A stretch of 64,000 nt of DNA from Arctopsyche grandis (Eukaryota; Arthropoda; Insecta; Trichoptera; Hydropsychidae): NCBI RefSeq assembly GCF_051622035.1, contig NC_135357.1, positions 37,245,691 through 37,309,690 on the forward strand, written 5' to 3'. The notes below the pieces were generated by a model, which saw nothing but the letters and a program-made list of their open reading frames with translations, was not told the DNA's origin and searched no databases. The position numbers and the translations under genes are program-made. Positions 3,091 to 17,429 of the stretch are shown piece after piece; within the stretch, counting starts at the first letter, position 1; the number at the start of each line of letters is the position of its first letter.

Positions 3091-4650
3091 CTCTAGTATA
3101 GGCGTCCTAGAAACCTGAAATTGTCTATATGCTATCAAAAGGTTTATATACCAAAACTTTCACATTTTTTAACTCTATTGTATTAAATGATTTTTCCATC
3201 ATTATCATCACTGAGACCTGGCTTCATCCCTCTATTAGGAATGGTGAGTTGTTTAACACTAATTACTTGGTTTTTATGCATGACCGTGTCTTTCGTGATG
3301 GTGGTGTCTTGTTCGCCATTAATAACAGAATATTGTCTCAGTGCAAACGCTTGTACTTCCTAGAAACTGTTATTGAGGATATATGTATGGCTAGAGGTCG
3401 TATTCGGCGTTGCCATTTTGTTTTCTGTGTTGTGTATTTTCCGCCTGATTTATCCAATATTAGTATTAATTTATTTTTTGAAAAGCTCATGCACAATTCC
3501 CGCTATTTGATTGATAAAAATGTGATTATTATGGGAGACTTTAAGCCCAACTGTTATCCCAACATTAAAGCTGATATTGAATTACATATTGATGTTTTTA
3601 ATCTAAATCAGATCAACACAGTATCTAACAATTATGGTCAAATGCTTGATACATTTTGGTAATCATCATATTCATCTAGTCGGGTCTGACCCCTATCAAA
3701 GATATCTGTTTTAATGATCTTATCAACTGCTGATTGAAGTGCACTTTACAATAATTCTGATCAGGTAGATAATGCACTTAGATAATGGCCGTGTATCGTG
3801 TGTTATATGATTATTTTGATTATTTCTTTCTCAATAGAGTATAGCTCTGAGTCATCTATTAGAAAGTACCCACCCTGGTACAGTTCTGTAACTATTAGAA
3901 TTGTGGCAACTCCAAGGTACTGGCCGTAAAACCATCGGCTGGCTAGCGCTTCACCGGTAAGCAAAGACTTCCTTCCCGGCTGTCAAAATAAATGGTTGTA
4001 CATTACCAACACAGTCGTCTCACTCGCCCTACCCCCATAGAATCATAAGGAAAAAGCACGTGGTGGGGATCTGATTTCGTTCAAACCCAATTGAAATCTC
4101 TGATCGATACTATCCATTCTACATATGTTGGTGAATGTGTTTCACAAATAAGGTTTTGCCCCAAAAAATTTTGGAGATTGATAAACTCCAAGCGGAAGAC
4201 TGTGCTCCCTTTCATCTATGCATGATAATAGAGATGTTGAGTTTGTTGGTCATCAGAGTATTTTTGCTTAAAAATTGTTCAGGGATAGGATGATGTACTA
4301 GTTGTACTAGATCATGAATTTTTCCCTACTAATGACACATTTTCCTTTTCTTCTTCTCTGTCTATTGATTTAATTGATACTATTGTAAGACAGGGAATGT
4401 ATGTTGACCGTATCCCGGTCTAACGAAACACGTGTTGTGTAGTTTGAAAGAGGATATTAATTTTTGTTCAATGGGTACAATGGTTATTGTATGTACGAAG
4501 AGGTTTCTTCGGAGATGTGATCTGTTTGAACTCCAGAGGCTCACTCTGCCGGTGGAGGTTGCTGCGTTGCTTTATAAACGTTTTGGGTTGAAGTGTGTCG
4601 TGTGCACATCTTTTGTTCTTGGTACTCGCGCTGCCCTAGTTATGTTTTAT

Positions 4651-5972: not shown

Positions 5973-7490
5973 ATGTTTTTTCTAGACTGAAGGCTTTGCG
6001 TTCATGTGGTCCAGACATGATCCCTGATTTCATTCTGAAAGGCTGAGCCCCTTCTTTTCCTACGTTGTGAAAATGCTCTCGGATTTTTCCTATTCATAAA
6101 GGGGGCGAAAAATCCAATATTGGAAATTACAGACCTCTTTCTTATCCAGTCCTGCTATAGTCTTTGAGCTCAAACTTTGTAACTATATATGGAACTATTT
6201 TCAACGTTTTGTGTTGGATGAGTAGCATGCTTTTTGACCTGGACGCTCAGCTGTCACGAATTTGTTTGATTTCAGTAATTGTGTTTACTGTTCTTTGAAC
6301 CATCATAACTAAGTCCATGTAATTTATACTGATTTCCATAAAGCCTTTGATAAGCAGAATCATATCATATTGCAGTTGAAAATGTTCGCGTATGGATTTT
6401 TTGACAGATTGGTGCAGTTTTTTAAATCCTATCTTATGAATCGTCAAAAGTTCGTCGTCTTCTATTCTACCTCTCTCGTTCCCATATCTACATTGCTGCT
6501 GTATATGTTGCTGACTCCGGGGTTCCCCAAGGTATACACTTGGTCAATTGTTGCTTTTCACTGTATGCGGATGATTTAAAACTCTATTTGTGTATATATG
6601 TATGTATATTCTGCGATCATGCGAACTTTTTCAAAATTATTTAAATACTCTTCACGGTTGGTCTTTGACTAACCGTTTGCTTCTCAATGTCTCCAAATAT
6701 AAAGTAATGTGTTACTCTAGATCTAGATATATCCCTTTTTGTACTTTTCCTTATCTTATTGGTAATTCTGAATTTAACTGGGTTGAATCTGCTGTTGATC
6801 TTGGGGTTACATTTCAGAGTCACCTCAGTTTCTCCAGTTACATTGATTCTGTGTGTTGCTCAGCTTTAAAGACGGTTCAAAGGTTTGTTTTTCGTAATTC
6901 CCGGCATTTCTAAAATCCTACTGTTGTGAGGCTGTTGTACAATCTCTGGTGAGAAGTATCATGGAGTATGCTTCTATGATCTGTAGTCTTTCAGACAAAA
7001 CTCAGTCTATTAAGCTTAAGCTTATCCAAAGACGTTTTCTCCGGCTTATATATGGGATTTACCCATATTTACTTCCTTTAAGATGTGTCATGGTTATGGT
7101 TTGCTACACATTTCGCTTGAGCACAGGAGAAGTGTTAGAAGCCTTATTTAGTTCTTCTTTTCTATATTTTGAGGTTTTATCTCATGTCAGGTTATTCTGG
7201 GTGAGATTGGCCTTCATGCTCCGGAGAGTTTGGTCTAGACCCGCCAACGTCCCTTATCTCATATTCCTCAGGCAAGAATCGCGGCATATTTTAATTCACC
7301 CATTCTAAGTTAACCAGCAGCATGGACTTGCTAGATAAACTGATTTTCATTGGAACGGTTCTGTATGTTTATTTTTTTAATGTATAATATGTGCTTATTT
7401 ATAATTTTTTATTTCTGTTTCTTGATCTGTGTAGTGCACTCGTCATGAGTGTACATGATTAATTGCAAATAAATAAATAAAATAAATTTT

Positions 7491-8762
7491 TATCGTACAG
7501 AATTTTGGCACACATGCTCTACAATATTTGTACCATAGATTGTAAATTGGACAATTCGTTCCATAAAATTGGACAATCTATGTATTATAAACGATATAAA
7601 TCTTTTTAATCACGATATACATACATACATACATTATATACATACATATATGCTTCGCATTTGTTTTTTGATGATTAACATTATTATTTTTTATCATAGT
7701 ATTATTTTATTTTTTACTATTTTATTATTTTTTATTACTTTATTATCCTTATTATCTTTATTACATTTTTATTATTTTGAATGTATTGTCATTTTAATTT
7801 TTTGCTTTTTGTAATTACATATCTTACTTTATTGTTATTTTTATTTCTTGCTTCTTAATGTTGAAATCACCTATTTGTGAAAATTCTATAATGGTTTTTT
7901 TATTTTAATTATTATAATTATTATTTTTTGTTAACAATTTTGTAAAATTGAAAAGAAAAAACTGTAGATTTTCCTATTAAATAAATATATAAAATCATGG
8001 TTCGAAACGATTTGGAAACTCGTCGGTCATATCATTCACATCATCATAATATAATTTTTGTTTGAAAATATATTATCTGTCTGATAGCTTATTTGATAAG
8101 GATTTGATTATATCATATACATGCATACATATGCTATGTATATATATCTACATATATGCATTGCATATCATTGTCATTTCATATCGAGTATTCATACGGT
8201 GTTCATACTTGGATTTGGATTTGGACAGGATTTATTCAGAATCAAAGGTACGATTATAGTGTAATCAAAAATGAATACTTACAATGTTTAGAAAGAACCT
8301 CAATATCATATGTTATGACTTATACCTCCCGGATCCTAATTCAAAACGGTTTTGTCCCCTTTTATCACACATTTGAAGATTGACTGAATATGAGATGCAA
8401 GTAACCCGGGAATTTTGGAAATTTAATATCAATACGATATTTATAATCATTCTAAAAACATAATTTTAACGCATACATTTACACTATTAAATATATATGT
8501 AGATTCGCAATTAAAATCCTTGACATTGTAATATTGCTGCGCCGTTTTGTGAAATGATTGTTATTTTTGTTTAAACAAAGAAAATAATATAATTAATTTA
8601 ATTTTTTTTTTTGATTTTTCTCAGGATAATTTATTCCCACCCAAAATTCCCGGGGAAGAATTCGCGATTTTCCCGACCGTGTATCTCTTTTTGAAGTTCG
8701 CATTATCACACAGAAATTATATTAAGTGAAAAGCATAATAATATAAAAGAAAACATCGAGCG
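7491..8762. other. AT-rich spacer upstream of the STAND-ankyrin gene
   Basis: Mostly A/T homopolymer and TATTTT-type sequence with TACATA microsatellite scraps (7620-7660, 8110-8165). No coding region is convincing. A short inverted pair at 8405-8418 and 8641-8654 (CCCGGGAATTTTGG) suggests a roughly 250-bp MITE ending about 110 bp before the gene start. No clear TATA box or initiator could be chosen in such AT-rich sequence. Confidence 0.6.
8405..8654. mobile_element. Possible MITE with 14-bp terminal inverted repeats
   Basis: CCCGGGAATTTTGG at 8405-8418 is the exact inverse of 8641-8654. The interior is AT-rich and non-coding. I could not find a matching target duplication, so the class is unknown. 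Confidence 0.4.
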
Positions 8763-11700
8763 ATGACAATGGATAAGTCTTACAATTTCAATTTAGTGTT
8801 TGTCAAATCAATTGAGGATAAATCAAAAACATTCGAAAAGCATTCAAATAAATCATCAGAGGGGAATGGAATCAAGAAGCTGATAAGAATTGGTTCGTAC
8901 GAACCGATAAAATCTTTCATCGGACGACAGAAAGAATTGAAGCAATTACATGCGTCCCTTCAGAAATGTCCAGTAGTAATTTTCTCCAAAGAAAGTATTG
9001 GAAAAACCCAGCTGGTCAAGATGTACGCGCGTTCAAAGGAAAGCTTTTATACAAATATTGTATTTATTGGTGCTAACAAGGAAGAGGAATCGTTTAAAAA
9101 GTGGGCCGATCATCATGAAGATTTGCAAAATGGCGCTAACGCTGAGAAACACGTCGAAACTGTCGTTGAAGGTGTATATGGAAGTTTGAGTTGTAACGAG
9201 CATACTTTAGTAGTGTTTGACGATGCGAGAAAATACGCTGATGTTAAAAAATTTCTACCGAATTGCGTACAAAACGTTTTCGGATTGCATATTTTGATTA
9301 CGACACAAAGTCGAGAATGGGCATCGGATAGTGGTGTAGACATTATTTATTTGAACGAAATCAGCGAAGGAGAAGTTATGGACTTTGCAAGGGAGGCTTT
9401 GCAAGATGAAAGCGAAGAACACATAAAAATGCTAGTGAGTAAATTCAAAGATAATCTTTCATTTTTGACCCAATCTATCGATTTTATTGAAATTCAAAAA
9501 CAGGCAGGTGACAAATCAGGTATAAAAAGTTATTTAAAATTGTACGATCAACGCAATGGAGTTGTGCCTGATAGTAAAGAAGTTCCATTTCGCAATACCT
9601 TGCAAAATGGCGATTATAAGTCGTTTGAAGAAATTGTAACAGAAAAACGTGACGATGATGATCGTGGTGCCATTTTACGTTCCGCTGCTGAAAACCAAGG
9701 CACAAAAGCTATAGAAGCTCTTTTCAATTGTGGATTTCGTGCTAATGATGCTGATGTTAATAGAAAAACTCTATTGCACTATTGCGCTGCTGCAGGGAAC
9801 GTTGATGCAATCAAGAAACTTGTCAGCATGGGAGTTGATGTAAATGCTCTGGATGATGAAGAAAAGAGTCCATTACATTACGCAGTCCTTAGCAACAACT
9901 GTGAAGCCATTACAATACTATTAAATAAAGGAGCAAAGGTCAATGCTGTTGATTTCCAAAATGTGACACCGCTTATCAGTGCTACAAGTTTGGATAACTT
10001 TAAAGCGGTTAAGATACTCGAAGAAAATAAAGCTAATATGAGTGTGGTCGATGGAAGCAAAAGAACTTTGCTTCACATCGCAGCTTCTACTGGAAACGTT
10101 GATTTGATAAAATTCTTCTTGAAAAAGGGATCTAATCTTAGAGCTGTAGATGAAAGCGGTCTGTCTCCATTGCACTATGCGGCGATTAATGGTAATGTTG
10201 AAGCGATTCGTTTGTTAAAAGAAAAAGGATCAAATTTGAATGAAGTGGATGAAGATGGCAGGACTCCAATGCATGAAGCTGCTTTAAATGATAATACTGA
10301 TGCTTTGAAAGTATTCTTGGATATGGGTGTGGATTCTAATGTGGCCGATGAACATGGAATAACTCCGTTACACAATGCAGCTCTTAAAGGCAATATTGAA
10401 GCATTAAAATTACTTCTAGATAGTGGAGCCGAAGCAAATAAAACCGATTCGAATGGTATTACACCTTTACATTTTGTGGCGTCATATGATAATGTCGAGG
10501 CAATAAGGACACTCAAAGACAACGGAGCTAATCTAGACCAAGTCAACAAAGATGGCTCGACTCCTTTACATTGTGCTGCATTTGAAAACAATTTAAGTTC
10601 AATCAAAGTACTATTGGAAATGAAGGCGAATCCGAATGTGAAGAATAAAAACGACCTAGCTCCTCTTCATTGTGCCGGATTTGAAAACAATCCGGAAACT
10701 CTCAAGATACTTTTAATAAATGGAGCAGATGCAAATATAAAGGACAAGGACGGTTCCACGACTTTGCACCACGTCGCATACAAAGGTATTGTACAGACTC
10801 CAGGGATGTTCAACTCGAGAGCACCCCGGAAGTCGGTTTCTTAGAAGCTCGTGGTAAGCGTGGGCGGGGCTGGTTTCCTCCAAGGGATCCACAGGTCGTC
10901 GTCTGCGGTCTGGTCTCTGCTGCTGTCGGCTCGGCTCGATGTATATCTCTCTCTCTCTCGTACAGTGTGCGTAAGTGAGGGTGATACGGGACAAAGGCGG
11001 GAAATTGAATAGTAATGAAAACAGGTTATAATTCTGTTTGTATGGTGACTGTATTATATATATATATGTATATACAGAGATCAAGCAGGGGGGACAGAAA
11101 AGGGGGGGGGGGGGAGTCCGACTTGAAATTAGCGCGCACGTGTTCAAGAGGTTATGGTAACCTCACTCAACCACGTGGCTCCGTGATCTGACTTCGACGA
11201 AGAGAGACCAGGAATTCCTCACTTCTCACCGGACGTATACTGAAGCTGTACTTCCAGTATCGTCTGCCGATCAAGGCTGAGCTGATCGGGACTCGGTGGT
11301 GGGAACCAACTCGGTAGCGAACAGAGATGTTCACTCGACCGACGCGGAAAACGAATAGGGGGCGGGGACGCGCGCTCGGCGCCGATCTCCCTCCAAAACG
11401 GCTCCTTTGGTCGTAACGCCACGAAAGCTGACCATGAAGACTTGGTCGGAACATACTCCCCCCGTTGGAAGTCAGAGGATCGAATTCCAAAACAAACAAG
11501 AATTAATGGTGCACAAGCGACTAATGAAATACACAAAAACCAAGCAAATAAGCAAAAAAATAACAAAAAAACAAAAAACAACACAACAAATAACCCAGTC
11601 AGCAAACAAAATAACATTAGTCCATCGTCAATTTCCCATCCTACATAAGCAGCTGACTAAGCCGGCAAGAAACAAACAAAAAATAGACAAACAAACAACC

Positions 11701-14700
11701 AAAACACCAACAAACACCAATGCTAGGTAACAATATTGTTCAATCGTTATATGTCCCAATCTATCCTGATAGCTCTATTACAAAGCACCAATCAAACCAA
11801 CAAGAGAAGCATAAAAGAAAAGCAACTCAAAAACTTAAGTTAAAACACATAAACTGAATCCACAACACAGATACAAACAACGCGCCAACTTTAATGTGGG
11901 ACGTTATGAACGTTCGCCACTCCGTTGCACAAATTAACCGACTGTTGCTCGACTGGCAGTCGAGCTACTCGCCGGACTGCTCGCTTGGTGTTGCTGATGG
12001 AGGAGTAGTAGGACCTACTCCTGTGCCCTTGTCTGCCAGGGGCCGCTGCTGCATGTGCTGGTGTGGTAGCACCCTCGCTCCGGGCTGATCGACCAGATCC
12101 TCCTGCTGTTGCGCAACTAGTGGTGCGCCAACTAGGAACTGGCCAGGAGTTATGGGAGCTGGGTTGGGAAGGTCGAAAGATGTGAGGGTTAAAGGGCGCG
12201 GGTACATTGCGCTTCGGCAAGCGGAATCTTCGTTCCGCGTAAATACGCGATTCGTCCAGGGGACGCGTAACTGTCTTGACTGGACGTCTCGCGCCAAAAC
12301 AAGATAACGGATCACGACCCGTTGTGTGATGGCAATTCCGAGAATCGCTTGAAACTGTGGGCGCTTCTAGAGAGCCGCCCAATATCCAGCCGAAAGCTGT
12401 ATTCATCATCGCGATGCGTCCTCCTCTGTCACCGCGTGACTTGGAGGGAACTAAAATGGTACGTTTGCCATTGCGTAACATCGCATGATAGGCGTCGCTG
12501 CCTATCACCATATCCACTGTACCGGGAATATCGAATGACGGATCGGCAAGGGGGAGATGAAGCGGCAAATGGCTCCGAATCTCGGACACGTTGCGCGATG
12601 GAAGTTGATTCGCGATCTCGGGCATGATTGCGCAATCGAGATCAACACTGGAGCCCTGATTGGGGATGCGCGGTAGAATTCGAATTACCGCGCCACTAGT
12701 AATGGACGTCCTATTTGAACCTATTCCTACCAGGTTGACGTCCATCCTTTTCGACTTTAAGGCGAGTCGCCTTCTTAAGTCTTCAGAGATGAGGTTGAGT
12801 TCGGAGCCGTTATCTAACAATGCTCGAACCTTGTGCGAACGCCCATCTCCGCCGCGAACTTGTACTTCCACGGTGGATAACAGGACAGTTCGGGCGTGAG
12901 AAGGCGATACGCGTCTCACCGAGTGTAAAACCAACGATGATTTTACGGGTTTGGCGTTCTCTGATTTCTTGGGGGTCCGATAATGTTTGGCCTTATTTGA
13001 AGGCGAAGTTTGGTATGGAGTTGAGTCATGTAACATGGTGTGATGGGCATGACCGCATTTGAAGCATCTCTGCTTTGTTTGGCACGCGTGAACTATGTGC
13101 CCTGGCCTCAAGCAGTTGAGACATAGTCGACGTTTTATGGCGTTCGACCTACGCTCATCACCGCTCATTTGGCGGAATGATGGACAGGCTAGCAGAGAAT
13201 GACTTCCGCTGCAACTGATGCAGGAGGGGCGTTCCCTCCTCACATGCAGAACTGCTGCCTTCGGATTCGTAATGGTTCTTAGTCGAGGATTCGACTCGCC
13301 TTTTAAGACGAAGTCGGCATTTGCCATCGATTGGCACTGAAGCGTCAGAAATTCGATGAGTTTGTGGAATGTGCACTCCTCATGTTTTGGCGCTTGAAGC
13401 TCCCATTGTCGAACCGTGTATCGATCGAGCTTCCTAGTGATGCACATGACCAAAATGTCGTCCCAAGTGTCGACCGGAACGCCTAAGTTGGCCAGTGCAC
13501 GGACGTGCATGTTAAAATCGTCTATGCAGCGATGCAAACTTGCGTAACTATTGGACGCAATTTGTTCCGCGTCCAATATTGCGCGAATGTGGGACTGAAC
13601 AACAATTTTTTTATTGTTGTAGCGCTGCTCCAGAATGGACCAAGCGCGGGAGAAGGAATCATCAGATAACTCTAAGCCACTGACTACGCGATTGGGTTCT
13701 CCTTTTAGGACTGCCAACAAGTATTGGAAACGGGCGAGTTGAGAAGTTTCGCCGGCCATAGCGACCAAGAAGCGTTGTGAGAAAAGGGGCCAATTTTGGA
13801 CGTTGCCTTCGAAGGTGGGCAACTCCAAACGGGGCAATTTTATTGCCGAATTTGATTGCGATACAGCGGAAATCGTGACGGCAGCGCCACCTACCGGCGA
13901 CGCGCTCAGTTGCAGCTCCCGCAATCTGAGCATTTCCATACATCGTTCGAGGGCGATTAAGTATTCCGTCTCGAACTCGTCAATGACGGACTCGGAGGCC
14001 CGAGCCTCCGCTTCGTCCAGCTCGTCAATCTGAGCTTGGACCGATTCGAAATCAGACAACAGAGGTTTAATTATCTCGAGTCTGATTTGGAGCATGGAAA
14101 TACTCAGATCCCCCTCCAAATGGTTCGCATTTCTCGTTAACCGAGCGCGAATGCTTTTCCGCGTATTCCGAAGTGCTTCCATTTTGGACACGACAAAAAT
14201 AAACAATGGACACGGGAAAAGAAACAAAATGGCGACCAAAAATCACAACAACAACAGAAAAATGCTAATTACGACCAACCTAGATTAGACGACGTTGACA
14301 GACCAGCTCTGGAAGAAATCCGGCTCTTTCGAAGGACCAAATGTACAGACTCCAGGGATGTTCAACTCGAGAGCACCCCGGAAGTCGGTTTCTTAGAAGC
14401 TCGTGGTAAGCGTGGGCGGGGCTGGTTTCCTCCAAGGGATCCACAGGTCGTCGTCTGCGGTCTGGTCTCTGCTGCTGTCGGCTCGGCTCGATGTATATCT
14501 CTCTCTCTCTCGTACAGTGTGCGTAAGTGAGGGTGATACGGGACAAAGGCGGGAAATTGAATAGTAATGAAAACAGGTTATAATTCTGTTTGTATGGTGA
14601 CTGTATTTTATATATATATGTATATACAGAGATCAAGCAGGGGGGACAGAAAAGGGGGGGGGGGAGTCCGACTTGAAATTAGCGCGCACGTGTTCAAGAG

Positions 14701-15687
14701 GTTATGGTAACCTCACTCAACCACGTGGCTCCGTGATCTGACTTCGACGAAGAGAGACCAGGAATTCCTCACTTCTCACCGGACGTATACTGAAGCTGTA
14801 CTTCCAGTATCGTCTGCCGATCAAGGCTGAGCTGATCGGGACTCGGTGGTGGGAACCAACTCGGTAGCGAACAGAGATGTTCACTCGACCGACGCGGAAA
14901 ACGAATAGGGGGCGGGGACGCGCGCTCGGCGCCGATCTCCCTCCAAAACGGCTCCTTTGGTCGTAACGCCACGAAAGCTGACCATGAAGACTTGGTCGGA
15001 ACAGGTATATTGGATATGATTCAAATCTTAATCGAAAATAGGGCTGATCCAAACGCAAAAAACAATCGTGGACTAACACCCATTCACTGCGCATCATCTG
15101 AAAACAAAATAGAAGCTGTCAAACTCCTCCTGCGATTAAACGCCGATCCAAATCTTCCAGATAATAGAGGTATCGTTCCATTGCATCACGCCTCGAAAGA
15201 AGGCAGACTGGATCTTATGAAGATACTCTTGGGGGCGAAAACAGATCCGAATACTAGCAATAAGCATGGTTTCACTTCGCTTCATTGTGCCGCATTTGAA
15301 GACAGACTTGACGCTCTCAACCTCCTGCTGCAAATGAAGGCAGATCCAAATCTGGCTTATGCCAATGGAGAGACTTTGATCCACTATTCCGCATTGGAAG
15401 CAAAGCTCGACATGTTGAAATTACTTTTAAAGTATAAAGCCGATGTTAACGTAAAAGATGATGATGGAATGACCCCGTTACATTTCGCCGCTGAATATAA
15501 TAACGTTGACGAGTTGAAGATTTTGTTGGAAAATGGTGCTAGAGTCGATTTGGTTGATAAATGTGGCAAAACGCCACTGCATATCGCCGAAGAAAACAAG
15601 AGTGAAAATTCGTACGAATTAATTTTAAATCATAAAAAAAATCAGAAAGACCGAACATCGTTCGATAAAGATATGCTGAGGGTATAA
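8763..15687 (+). CDS. STAND (NB-ARC-like) NTPase-ankyrin repeat protein, interrupted by a BEL/Pao element
   Basis: Host gene in two blocks, 8763-10789 and 15009-15687, separated by a retroelement plus one copy of its GGTAT duplication. Without the insert it is 2706 bp, 901 codons, with no intron. Residues about 45-240 look like a STAND/NB-ARC NTPase: FIGRQKELKQL, a degenerate Walker A (SKESIGKTQL, about 75-84), Walker B (LVVFDD, about 149-154), a sensor-like LITTQS (about 178) and a decayed lid segment. From about residue 300 to the end there are about 17 ankyrin repeats (TPLHxAAxxGN style), the last near KTPLHIAEEN. The family is likely a nucleotide-driven sensor or scaffold, but ligand and partners are unknown. 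Lack of introns, against many in its neighbours, suggests retrocopy or horizontal origin. As read here the first block continues into the LTR and stops at 10844, losing the last six or seven repeats. Confidence 0.8.
10790..11453 (-). repeat. BEL/Pao 3' LTR (left copy)
   Basis: Direct repeat of 14342-15003. It holds a G run at about 11102-11114 and a CT run near 10946. It abuts the host GGTAT at 10785-10789. Confidence 0.9.
11891..14239 (-). CDS. BEL/Pao gag and protease polyprotein (retroelement)
   Basis: Open frame of 782 codons. A methionine about 20 codons in (near 14182) starts a more gag-like MEALRNTRKSIRARL. A DUF1759-type gag region covers about residues 134-280 (LPRLELPTFEGN). Two zinc-knuckle-like motifs follow (CLNCLRPGHIVHAC and CFKCGHAHHTMLH, about 380-410). 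A DUF1758 retroviral-type aspartic protease follows (ALLDNGSELNLIS, about 470). These are the hallmark domains of BEL/Pao elements. It is encoded antisense to the ankyrin gene and belongs to the element at 10790-15003. Treated as a fossil part; no function for the host is implied. Confidence 0.85.
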   Translation of the reverse strand: MVAILFLFPCPLFIFVVSKMEALRNTRKSIRARLTRNANHLEGDLSISMLQIRLEIIKPLLSDFESVQAQIDELDEAEARASESVIDEFETEYLIALERCMEMLRLRELQLSASPVGGAAVTISAVSQSNSAIKLPRLELPTFEGNVQNWPLFSQRFLVAMAGETSQLARFQYLLAVLKGEPNRVVSGLELSDDSFSRAWSILEQRYNNKKIVVQSHIRAILDAEQIASNSYASLHRCIDDFNMHVRALANLGVPVDTWDDILVMCITRKLDRYTVRQWELQAPKHEECTFHKLIEFLTLQCQSMANADFVLKGESNPRLRTITNPKAAVLHVRRERPSCISCSGSHSLLACPSFRQMSGDERRSNAIKRRLCLNCLRPGHIVHACQTKQRCFKCGHAHHTMLHDSTPYQTSPSNKAKHYRTPKKSENAKPVKSSLVLHSVRRVSPSHARTVLLSTVEVQVRGGDGRSHKVRALLDNGSELNLISEDLRRRLALKSKRMDVNLVGIGSNRTSITSGAVIRILPRIPNQGSSVDLDCAIMPEIANQLPSRNVSEIRSHLPLHLPLADPSFDIPGTVDMVIGSDAYHAMLRNGKRTILVPSKSRGDRGGRIAMMNTAFGWILGGSLEAPTVSSDSRNCHHTTGRDPLSCFGARRPVKTVTRPLDESRIYAERRFRLPKRNVPAPFNPHIFRPSQPSSHNSWPVPSWRTTSCATAGGSGRSARSEGATTPAHAAAAPGRQGHRSRSYYSSISNTKRAVRRVARLPVEQQSVNLCNGVANVHNVPH
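14342..15003 (-). repeat. BEL/Pao 5' LTR (right copy)
   Basis: Direct repeat of the left LTR. The minus-strand primer-binding sequence lies immediately inside it (about 14320-14341). It is followed by GGTAT at 15004-15008 and then by the resumed host ankyrin frame. Confidence 0.9.
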
Positions 15688-16092
15688 ATAATTATAAACA
15701 CAATACAAAAAAGAAGTAATAAATCAATTAATTTAAGCCCTCGCGATCACAATCTTTTTTACAGTTCACAGTTTTATTAGTTTATTTTATTATTAATTCG
15801 TAGTAATTCACCCCTCGAATGAAACTAGATCATTTTTTCGAACTTGTATACAGTAAATTCATCTCACTTCAACAAAATATTTAGGCTCGTTTTTAAAATC
15901 AAATGAAACATTATTATTAATGAATATTCCAGTATTTTGCTTGCATATGATAATGAGGTTTCTTTTTATTTATTTATTTGTTTATACGGTCAAAAAAATG
16001 ACACAAAGAAAAGAAAAAAATGCAATACAAAAGTTGGTAAATTTTATAAACATGTGTAATTTGTATGTATTTGTATGTTACATATTATAAAA
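15688..16092. other. 3' flank of the STAND-ankyrin gene
   Basis: AT-rich non-coding sequence. AATAA-type signals occur soon after the stop (for example around 15716). Nothing else is recognisable until the MITE at 16093. Confidence 0.6.
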
Positions 16093-16426: not shown

Positions 16427-16528
16427 ATTATAAAATACAATTTTACTAATTATTTATTTATATAAAAATAGGACTGGAATCCAACTATCACCTTCATGGC
16501 TAATAAGTAGCTACATATCTACATATGT

Positions 16529-17429
16529 ATGTACATGTGTGGATCTATCAAAAGGAAACTGCAGAATGTCATCCGAAATCAGTATAGAAAAAAATGTAAT
16601 ATTTTCGTTAAACATTTTGTTGAACAAATCGAAGAAATCTTAAATCGTAAGAAGAGTCGTAAAGAAAATAAGAGTATACAATTGAAATTACCCAATGACA
16701 GAGATAAACGTAGATATTGTTTTGTTACTATCGCCTGTGACGTTTTCCAAAGTTTTGAATTTCAATTATTGCAAGTGACCTCTAAAGGAGAACCTTTTAT
16801 GGCAATAAACAAATTCGCAGAAGATGCAGCTTACAGATTTTACAAATCGTTCAAAGACAACAAAGACGGCGATATTGATGCAAAGCGTGTCCTCTGTGGT
16901 AAATCTAAACTAACTATTTTGAGAAAACCGGGACAGGAAGTTGAGTATTCGTATGGAAGCACCCAAAAGGAATGGAGAACTTCGTATGTCTTTGAAATGA
17001 CGGGACTCGCTTTATTGAAGAACGGGGAACGGAAGTTTTACTCGAGTAACGCGTCCAAGCATGAATTATACAACATACTTCCGTCGACCTCTGTTTGTGG
17101 AATCTTTGGTAGAATTGAAGATCAACTATGGTTTTGAAGAACGTTGTGATAACATTGATTATAAAAAGAAGCCGGATTATTATATCAAACAGAAACCGAA
17201 AATTTTACAAAGGCTGGGATTTGATTGTTCAGAATCGTTTCTCGATTCTGAAAAGTCTTACAAAAACGAAAAAGATATCACGAGAGAAAAAATTTCCAAA
17301 CCGAAAAGAAACAGCCTTCGCAGAAGAAATAACCCAATCAGAAATGACGGTTCAGCTTTATTGCGATGGTGTTTGTTAGTAGTATTGGTACAATACGTTC
17401 TAGAATTAATTATTTATTACAAATATTAG
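16529..17429 (+). CDS. Unrecognised protein gene with C-terminal membrane segment, reading frame split
   Basis: I do not recognise this family. The frame 16529-17137 gives 202 codons rich in K, E and N, with YCFVTIACDVFQSFEFQLLQ and FAEDAAYRFYKSFKD near its middle. A second frame, 17061-17429, overlaps its end and reads VESLVELKINYGFEERC, then a strongly basic stretch, then a hydrophobic run near the C-terminus (CLLVVLVQYVLELIIYY) that looks like a tail anchor. Both frames look coding, so the gene may have shifted frame near 17100. Near the start, ATG at 16567 (MSSEISIEKN) enters the same text in another frame across an A-run, so a second shift is possible. There are no introns. It lies downstream of the intronless STAND-ankyrin gene, in the same direction. 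It may be a pseudogene, a gene with sequencing errors, or one using an unseen splice. Confidence 0.45.

Follow-up and report, generated by a model that had tools for sequence, protein, structure and literature searches.

Plant nucleotide-binding, leucine-rich repeat receptors (NLRs) combine an N-terminal module with C-terminal repeats and form large families, and a layout in which NB-ARC is joined to ankyrin repeats occurs in fungi. Fungal NLR-like genes are reported in PMC4986451. Passages of Bordenstein and Bordenstein (2016, PMC5062602) report that ankyrin/tetratricopeptide repeat (TPR) and NACHT proteins of Wolbachia phage have homologues in arthropods; those for which this is reported include the N terminus of gwv_1093 and a NACHT-ankyrin protein of phage WO. 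A protein with ankyrin repeats and NB-ARC is noted in a passage on a flea Wolbachia prophage (PMC10438800). Among the matches listed, no NB-ARC-ankyrin expansion in an insect is described in the titles and abstract openings of the open-licence literature. The gene considered here lies at 8763-15687 in a 64,000-nucleotide stretch (the window) of the caddisfly Arctopsyche grandis, contig NC_135357.1. It is, very likely, a reduced and split member of a large NB-ARC-ankyrin family of signal transduction ATPases with numerous domains (STAND), shared with Wolbachia by ancient lateral transfer, whose intact members would act as NLR-type switches. The family identity and the lateral link are the parts of which we are most confident.

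The window gene has many relatives in its own genome. When the 475.7-Mb assembly (189 contigs) was searched, its nucleotide-binding (NB) domain found at least 100 matches and a Wolbachia NB-ARC domain at least 106, the latter at 27-48% identity over up to 420 residues; these counts are lower bounds. Joining matches within 3 kb, and adding one extra place from the search with the window domain, brings the family to at least 96 loci, spread over 12 contigs (numbered here with L and C, respectively). Stop-to-stop frames of at least 1000 residues are present at 69 of the 96, and 67 of these have no stop within the match. The median frame is 1333.5 residues and the longest 3,696, with nine loci falling under 600, and the cut-off of Pfam PF00931 (NB-ARC) is passed at 73 places in the genome. 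On five of the 12 contigs, the nearest contig end is less than 5 Mb away for 65 of 75 loci, where 22.6 would be expected; with clusters collapsed, the figure on the same contigs is 24 of 30 against 8.9. The preliminary description of this DNA had suggested a retrocopy or horizontal gain. As the sole origin, a single-gene retrocopy can be rejected: at least 96 loci carry the domain, 67 of them in long frames without a stop in the match, and the intact ones that were fetched have a common layout.

Twenty loci were fetched for their architecture, five of them being scanned whole with Pfam. As a rule, an N-terminal domain about 430 residues long (the N-domain) is followed by a complete NB-ARC, a linker and a long ankyrin array, and 17 of the 20 have 376 residues or more ahead of NB-ARC. 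L011 is without the N-domain, while in L010 the frame starts just ahead of NB-ARC, with N-domain sequence further upstream in a different frame. In alignments of 20 and 15 sequences, the intact paralogues possess the P-loop, Walker B, sensor, GLPL-like motif and ARC2, with the NB-ARC motifs VVGLGGIGKTELAKKY, LVVFDNAEEY, TLITSR, FPLALKQAVGYI, ARC2 and VHRLVQ; the linker between NB-ARC and ankyrins carries HIVSVWEHSSNYP. Four of the five scanned members pass the PF00931 cut-off of 23.5 bits (L021, 35.0; L009, 41.6; L017, 31.0; L020, 37.7) and L011 fails it at 19.8. L021 also matches NF040586 at residues 459-826. Each scanned member has 11-21 Ank stretches, and no leucine-rich repeats appear in the Pfam lists of the window pieces and the five paralogues, the repeats belonging to ankyrin families. 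The N-domain has no convincing relative in Pfam or among PDB sequences. The tripartite layout of NLRs, with an N-terminal module, an NB domain and C-terminal repeats, is thus found in the intact paralogues only.

The closest relatives found outside the insect are in Wolbachia. A prokaryote collection holding one genome for each of 84,980 species, with contigs under 3 kb excluded, was scanned with the NB-ARC alignment; the scan is not exhaustive, because it was based on two short peptide patterns, and its E-values are relative to candidate stretches. Among the 47 loci found, the best two are from Wolbachia (the endosymbiont of Fragariocoptes setiger, 2e-68 at 38% identity, and wOc, 1e-47), and the third stands at 9e-30. 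NB-ARC was found in 31 of 41 genomes of the Wolbachia genus, with E-values down to 3.6e-121. With a hidden Markov model, near-complete Wolbachia domains score 314-398 bits and the best other bacterium 109.0. The likeness extends beyond NB-ARC: the Wolbachia protein L078, a frame of 1628 residues, aligns with the insect L009 at 31% identity over 1,314 columns (2e-137), through N-domain, NB-ARC and linker and into the ankyrins. An insect N-domain profile scores 94 bits in L078, 90 in L091, 85 in L088 and 44 in L030, against 7.0 for the best of 360 shuffled open reading frames (ORFs). Across the order, N-domain matches occur in 15 of 343 genomes. Twelve of the 15 belong to the 41 genomes of the Wolbachia genus; the three Rickettsiales genomes outside the 41 (G063, G064, G065) have their matches in frames of 96-448 residues. 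An earlier suggestion of a link to an ankyrin-rich endosymbiont is therefore supported, since Wolbachia provides by far the closest relatives found and shares the arrangement from N-domain to ankyrins.

Several forms of the protein can be distinguished by eye in Wolbachia. The N-domain precedes NB-ARC and ankyrins in L078 (Pfam-scanned), and NB-ARC and TPR in L030, L088 and L091 (Pfam for L091). A different N-terminus precedes NB-ARC and ankyrins in L079, L080, L081, L083 and L087 (Pfam for L080 and L087), and L089 and L090 are of a plain NB-ARC-TPR form. The different N-terminus fused to the family NB-ARC in L029 and in the Wolbachia loci L079, L080, L083 and L087 seems by eye to resemble DUF4297/Cap4-type defence proteins; Pfam gives no family of this type in L080 and L087 up to 0.001. 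In the insect, 19 more diverged members (27-34% identity) align with the Wolbachia query no further than position 321-387, close to the point at which TPR-type Wolbachia proteins stop as well. They are sited at C11:26.7-29.0M, C12:0.5-2.1M, C9:11.9M/31.6M/32.2M, C1:39.4M, C6:20.9M/32.3M, C7:31.1M and C13:11.8M, and may represent another form, with TPRs, that goes back to a transfer of its own.

An alternative in which the family is vertical, an animal Apaf-1/Dark NB-ARC having gained an ankyrin array, is strongly disfavoured and seems to us most improbable. The 73 places above the PF00931 cut-off do include two short matches in separate short frames at C3:22178221-22179140 which look like exons of another NB-ARC gene, perhaps the genome's own Apaf-1/Dark. 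Against such a descent, the Wolbachia NB-ARC is matched at 27-48% over up to 420 residues and the N-domain is common to Wolbachia. Moreover, the NB-ARC alignment profile, searched against solved structures, gives plant NLRs first (Sr35 at 4.5e-6, then NRC2, NRC3, Roq1 and MLA13) and the bacterial AfsR weakly at 0.08, with Apaf-1 absent from the matches up to E 1. Bacterial contamination was rejected because five of the locus-bearing contigs measure 30-43 Mb and because identity to the Wolbachia NB-ARC is only 27-48%. In addition, when ten pieces of other frames in the window were compared with Pfam, three exceeded the cut-offs of families of animal type, namely LDL-receptor class A, EF-hand_2 and ornithine decarboxylase. 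A viral origin was likewise rejected: three scans of viral contigs found no relative, and a phage collection gave one weak match to the window domain (28%, E 1e-3) and none to L021.

Lateral transfer between Wolbachia and the insect lineage is well supported by the trees. Under LG+C20, with 44 rows (20 insect, 16 Wolbachia and eight other bacteria), insects and Wolbachia stand apart from the other bacteria with support of 100/100 and the insect rows form one group (100/97). Two trees and four constrained groupings did not settle the direction of transfer. In the LG+C20 tree, which has long outgroup branches and an odd letter make-up in seven outgroup rows, a branch sets the 16 Wolbachia rows off from all others (75/92). 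The LG+F+G4 tree, of 45 rows, has the outgroup joining within Wolbachia, weakly supported, and the window copy basal on the insect side, its branch measuring 1.50. A movement from Wolbachia to arthropods is mildly preferred, by a little over even odds, because the bacterial NB-ARC-TPR form occurs in Wolbachia side by side with the ankyrin form. The opposite direction, in which an old arthropod NB-ARC-ankyrin family donated genes to phage WO or Wolbachia that serve there as host-mimicking proteins, is somewhat less probable. It would agree with the branch that sets off the 16 Wolbachia rows under LG+C20, and transfer from arthropods to WO has been argued by parsimony, in a passage of PMC5062602 which calls the reverse plausible, for a related-looking WO protein with homologues in many arthropods. 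Set against it are the several N-terminal and repeat types of the Wolbachia family (TPR, ankyrin and other N-termini) and the wider bacterial relatives in plasmids, which are mostly named as NB-ARC-TPR proteins among the matches listed (24-29% identity in the best 20 of 59 records). Furthermore, a tree in which insects and the ankyrin-bearing Wolbachia rows except L087 are constrained to form a clade is as likely as the best tree (p-AU, approximately unbiased test, 0.49); with L087 included the value is 0.25, and for insects with the remaining Wolbachia rows it is 0.19.

The window gene itself is a poor representative of this family. It had been described as one gene spanning 8763-15687, and NB-ARC-like/ankyrin coding pieces are indeed present at both ends of that interval; between them, however, lies a 4,214-bp long terminal repeat (LTR) element (10790-15003) which sits within ankyrin repeat 12 and splits the gene. 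The features are as follows.

8763..10789, plus strand: gene piece 1 (NB-ARC-like/ankyrin), with an NB subdomain having a degenerate Walker A, an ARC1-like part, 11 ankyrin repeats and the opening part of repeat 12; ARC2 is missing
10785..10789, no strand assigned: left copy of the target-site duplication GGTAT, from the sequence
10790..11453, minus strand: LTR of 664 bp, supplying the stop codon that closes piece 1
11891..14182, minus strand: gag/protease-like ORF of a BEL/Pao-type element, with DUF1759 and a weak aspartyl protease match
14342..15003, minus strand: LTR of 662 bp, differing from the other by one substitution and a 2-nt gap
15004..15008, no strand assigned: right copy of the target-site duplication GGTAT, from the sequence
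15004..15687, plus strand: gene piece 2, with the remainder of repeat 12, then six ankyrin repeats and a stop; AATAAA lies near 15718

The ATG-started frame at 8763 ends at a stop at 10842-10844, inside the LTR. Translated apart, the two pieces have compatible reading frames either side of the GGTAT duplication, and the stop of piece 2 is at 15685-15687. The allele as assembled contains 674 gene codons, then the duplicated target site, 17 LTR codons and a stop, and would thus yield 674 gene-coded residues with a 19-residue tail from the duplication and LTR. Ank_2 is matched at 6.5e-80 in piece 1 and 2.8e-60 in piece 2, Pfam marking nine and seven Ank stretches, respectively. The repeats had been put at about 17; the array is there, and a count by eye gives 11 before the break, one split (repeat 12) and six after it, or about 18. 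The insert has the LTR pair, target duplication and DUF1759 gag of BEL/Pao elements, for which we take DUF1759 to be a marker. Its interior of 2.9 kb contains one long minus-strand ORF with DUF1759 at 1.7e-29 and an aspartyl protease match at 0.0019, below the family cut-off; the Pfam scan covered this gag-like ORF only, and the interior leaves little room for reverse transcriptase and integrase. The insertion of this BEL/Pao-type element looks recent. Elsewhere in the window, 3111-3662 and 6575-7308 appear by eye to be endonuclease and reverse-transcriptase pieces of a non-LTR element, for which Pfam matches none up to E 0.01.

The motifs FIGRQKELKQL, SKESIGKT, LVVFDD and LITTQS, from which an NB-ARC-like domain had been proposed, are all found in the 8763 frame with ankyrin repeats after them, as described. 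When the domain is compared with NB-ARC families, residues 50-226 match NCBIfam NF040586 (NB-ARC/TPR protein) at 1.5e-15 and residues 52-158 match Pfam ATPase_2 at 6.1e-5, whereas PF00931 finds no match up to E 10, in a range where HMMER filters drop most matches above about 0.1. The NF040586 (FxsT) cut-off is missed, at 56.8 against 300 bits for residues 1-296, and the repeats here are ankyrin, not TPR; PADLOC and PHROGs gave nothing for the domain. The proposal of a STAND/NB-ARC and ankyrin layout was nevertheless right, a complete NB-ARC being present in the intact paralogues. In the family alignment the window copy retains 29 of 59 invariant NB/ARC1 columns. Its Walker A, SKESIGKT, keeps GKT and has lost the leading glycines, so that GxxxxGK[ST] does not match; the GLPL-like motif is lost, the ARC2/winged-helix part with its HRLVQ motif is missing and there is no N-domain. 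Although a homologue of NB-ARC proteins, the window copy is, on these losses of columns, Walker A, GLPL-like motif and ARC2, not a competent-looking switch.

A window gene that still works, the LTR insertion being absent from other alleles, would agree with the near identity of the two LTRs (one substitution and a 2-nt gap) and with both pieces being open as far as the element. We consider it unlikely given the degenerate Walker A and ARC1 motifs, the absence of ARC2 and the 29 of 59 invariant columns kept. Most likely the window copy is a decayed or decoy member. A further piece of the family lies 0.8 kb downstream, where 16511-17137 scores 65 bits against the insect-only N-domain profile.

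16511..17429, plus strand: remnant or truncated gene with the family N-domain only (genome-wide N-domain match, E 1.3e-5)

In this remnant the frame seems to shift between about 17060 and 17140, and no NB-ARC was seen; its terminal frame includes a hydrophobic stretch.

The gene had also been called intronless. This holds for the coding sequence, the coding parts of family members being single frames, whereas intron-like sites in the 5' untranslated region (UTR) are visible by eye upstream of the window ATG and of eight of the ten paralogues printed, as GT..AG-like pairs.

8248..8624, plus strand: possible 5' UTR intron of the window gene, with donor-like aag|gtacg near 8248 and acceptor-like ttttctcag at 8624, by eye

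In L009, L012, L013 and L016 the upstream sequence reads ggtatgt(a/g)ag...tgcag, and in L019, L021, L025 and L028 gtacgt...attacag. L024 has the acceptor only, and the stretch upstream of L017 is uninformative because the first Met of L017 is internal. These sites fit a 5' UTR intron, short of proof.

The manner in which the family evolves bears on what it may do. Ratios of nonsynonymous to synonymous substitution (dN/dS, by NG86) for NB-ARC in seven close paralogue pairs are 0.22, 0.15, 0.87, 0.62, 0.16, 0.18 and 0.46; purifying selection on NB-ARC is clear in four of the seven (0.15-0.22). For the ankyrins the range is 0.42-0.76. L009 and L012 are 93-100% identical per 100 residues through N-domain and NB-ARC and 49-84% in the ankyrins, and L013/L016 and L025/L028 show the same tendency, less cleanly. 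This is the pattern that a sensor would show, in which the switch is conserved and the repeat array turns over fast. An alternative that must be taken seriously, although we favour it less, is that these genes are not immune sensors but a self-expanding set, concerned with reproductive manipulation or the regulation of symbiont load or without function, with the window copy as ordinary debris. The LTR split, the N-domain remnant beside the window gene and the broken-looking paralogues among those fetched (L010, L015, L018, L022, L023) would agree with this, as would the targeting of fly proteins by Wolbachia ankyrin repeats, to judge from the title of PMC13170367. It is countered by the long frames retained at 67 of 96 loci and by the clear purifying selection on NB-ARC in four pairs.

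A number of observations weigh against the reading of an ancient transfer followed by the upkeep of NLR-type switches. The N-domain was found in only four of 15 distinct Wolbachia proteins tested, and the trees hold only 20 of the 96 insect loci beside the window copy, the most diverged being left out. NB-ARC dN/dS is 0.46-0.87 in three of the seven pairs and several fetched paralogues look broken, so that some members of the family may be in decay. Identity in the first ankyrin stretches of L018/L027 reaches 90-97%, as high as in NB-ARC, and only later stretches differ. Finally, six of seven pairs have a higher dS in the ankyrins than in NB-ARC (0.495 against 0.042 in L009/L012; only slightly higher in L011/L014), with L019/L021 as the exception, where the ankyrin value is the lower one; the raised values indicate a contribution from recombination or conversion and point to repeat turnover no less than to selection.

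Allowing for these points, the intact members are probably NLR-like switches, and the chances that they have an immune role appear to be about even. The ligand, most likely a protein of a microbe or symbiont, would be bound by the fast-changing ankyrin array, upon which NB-ARC would swap ADP for ATP and oligomerise and the N-domain would signal. Because its N-domain and ARC2 are missing and its Walker A is damaged, the window copy could even before the insertion at most have bound ligand, as a decoy or regulator. It is attractive to consider, although only tentatively, that an insect lineage without classical NLRs took a Wolbachia NB-ARC-ankyrin gene and from it rebuilt an NLR repertoire, some hundred intracellular receptors strong, expanding it near chromosome ends and diversifying the ankyrins by recombination while conserving the switch, so that a symbiont protein became a sensor of symbionts or their phages. 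With this family, NLR-like receptors in an insect become a concrete subject for testing, and a symbiont relative is available for comparison. The case would tie together the replacement of NLRs in insects, the source of eukaryotic NB-ARC proteins and the role of Wolbachia NB-ARC and ankyrin proteins. The window gene is among its least informative members, and the intact paralogues are the ones worth studying.

Comparison with described systems brings out both common and differing themes. The fungal NLR-like proteins are likened here by description only; so too is gwv_1093 of the phage WO eukaryotic association module (EAM), the insect L021 having found no match in the phage collection. FxsT and the bacterial NB-ARC-TPR proteins (NF040586) share the NB-ARC match, which covers residues 50-226 in the window protein and 459-826 in L021, but differ in their annotated TPR repeats and in the 24-29% identity of the best 20 of 59 plasmid records. 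The plant NLRs Sr35, NRC2, Roq1 and MLA13 share the NB-ARC domain; they bear leucine-rich repeats in place of the ankyrins found here, and the insect N-domain is without a convincing PDB or Pfam relative. The Wolbachia NB-ARC-ankyrin proteins come closest: TPR and other N-terminal forms also occur in Wolbachia, but in L078 the N-domain, NB-ARC, linker and ankyrin repeats all align with the intact insect members.

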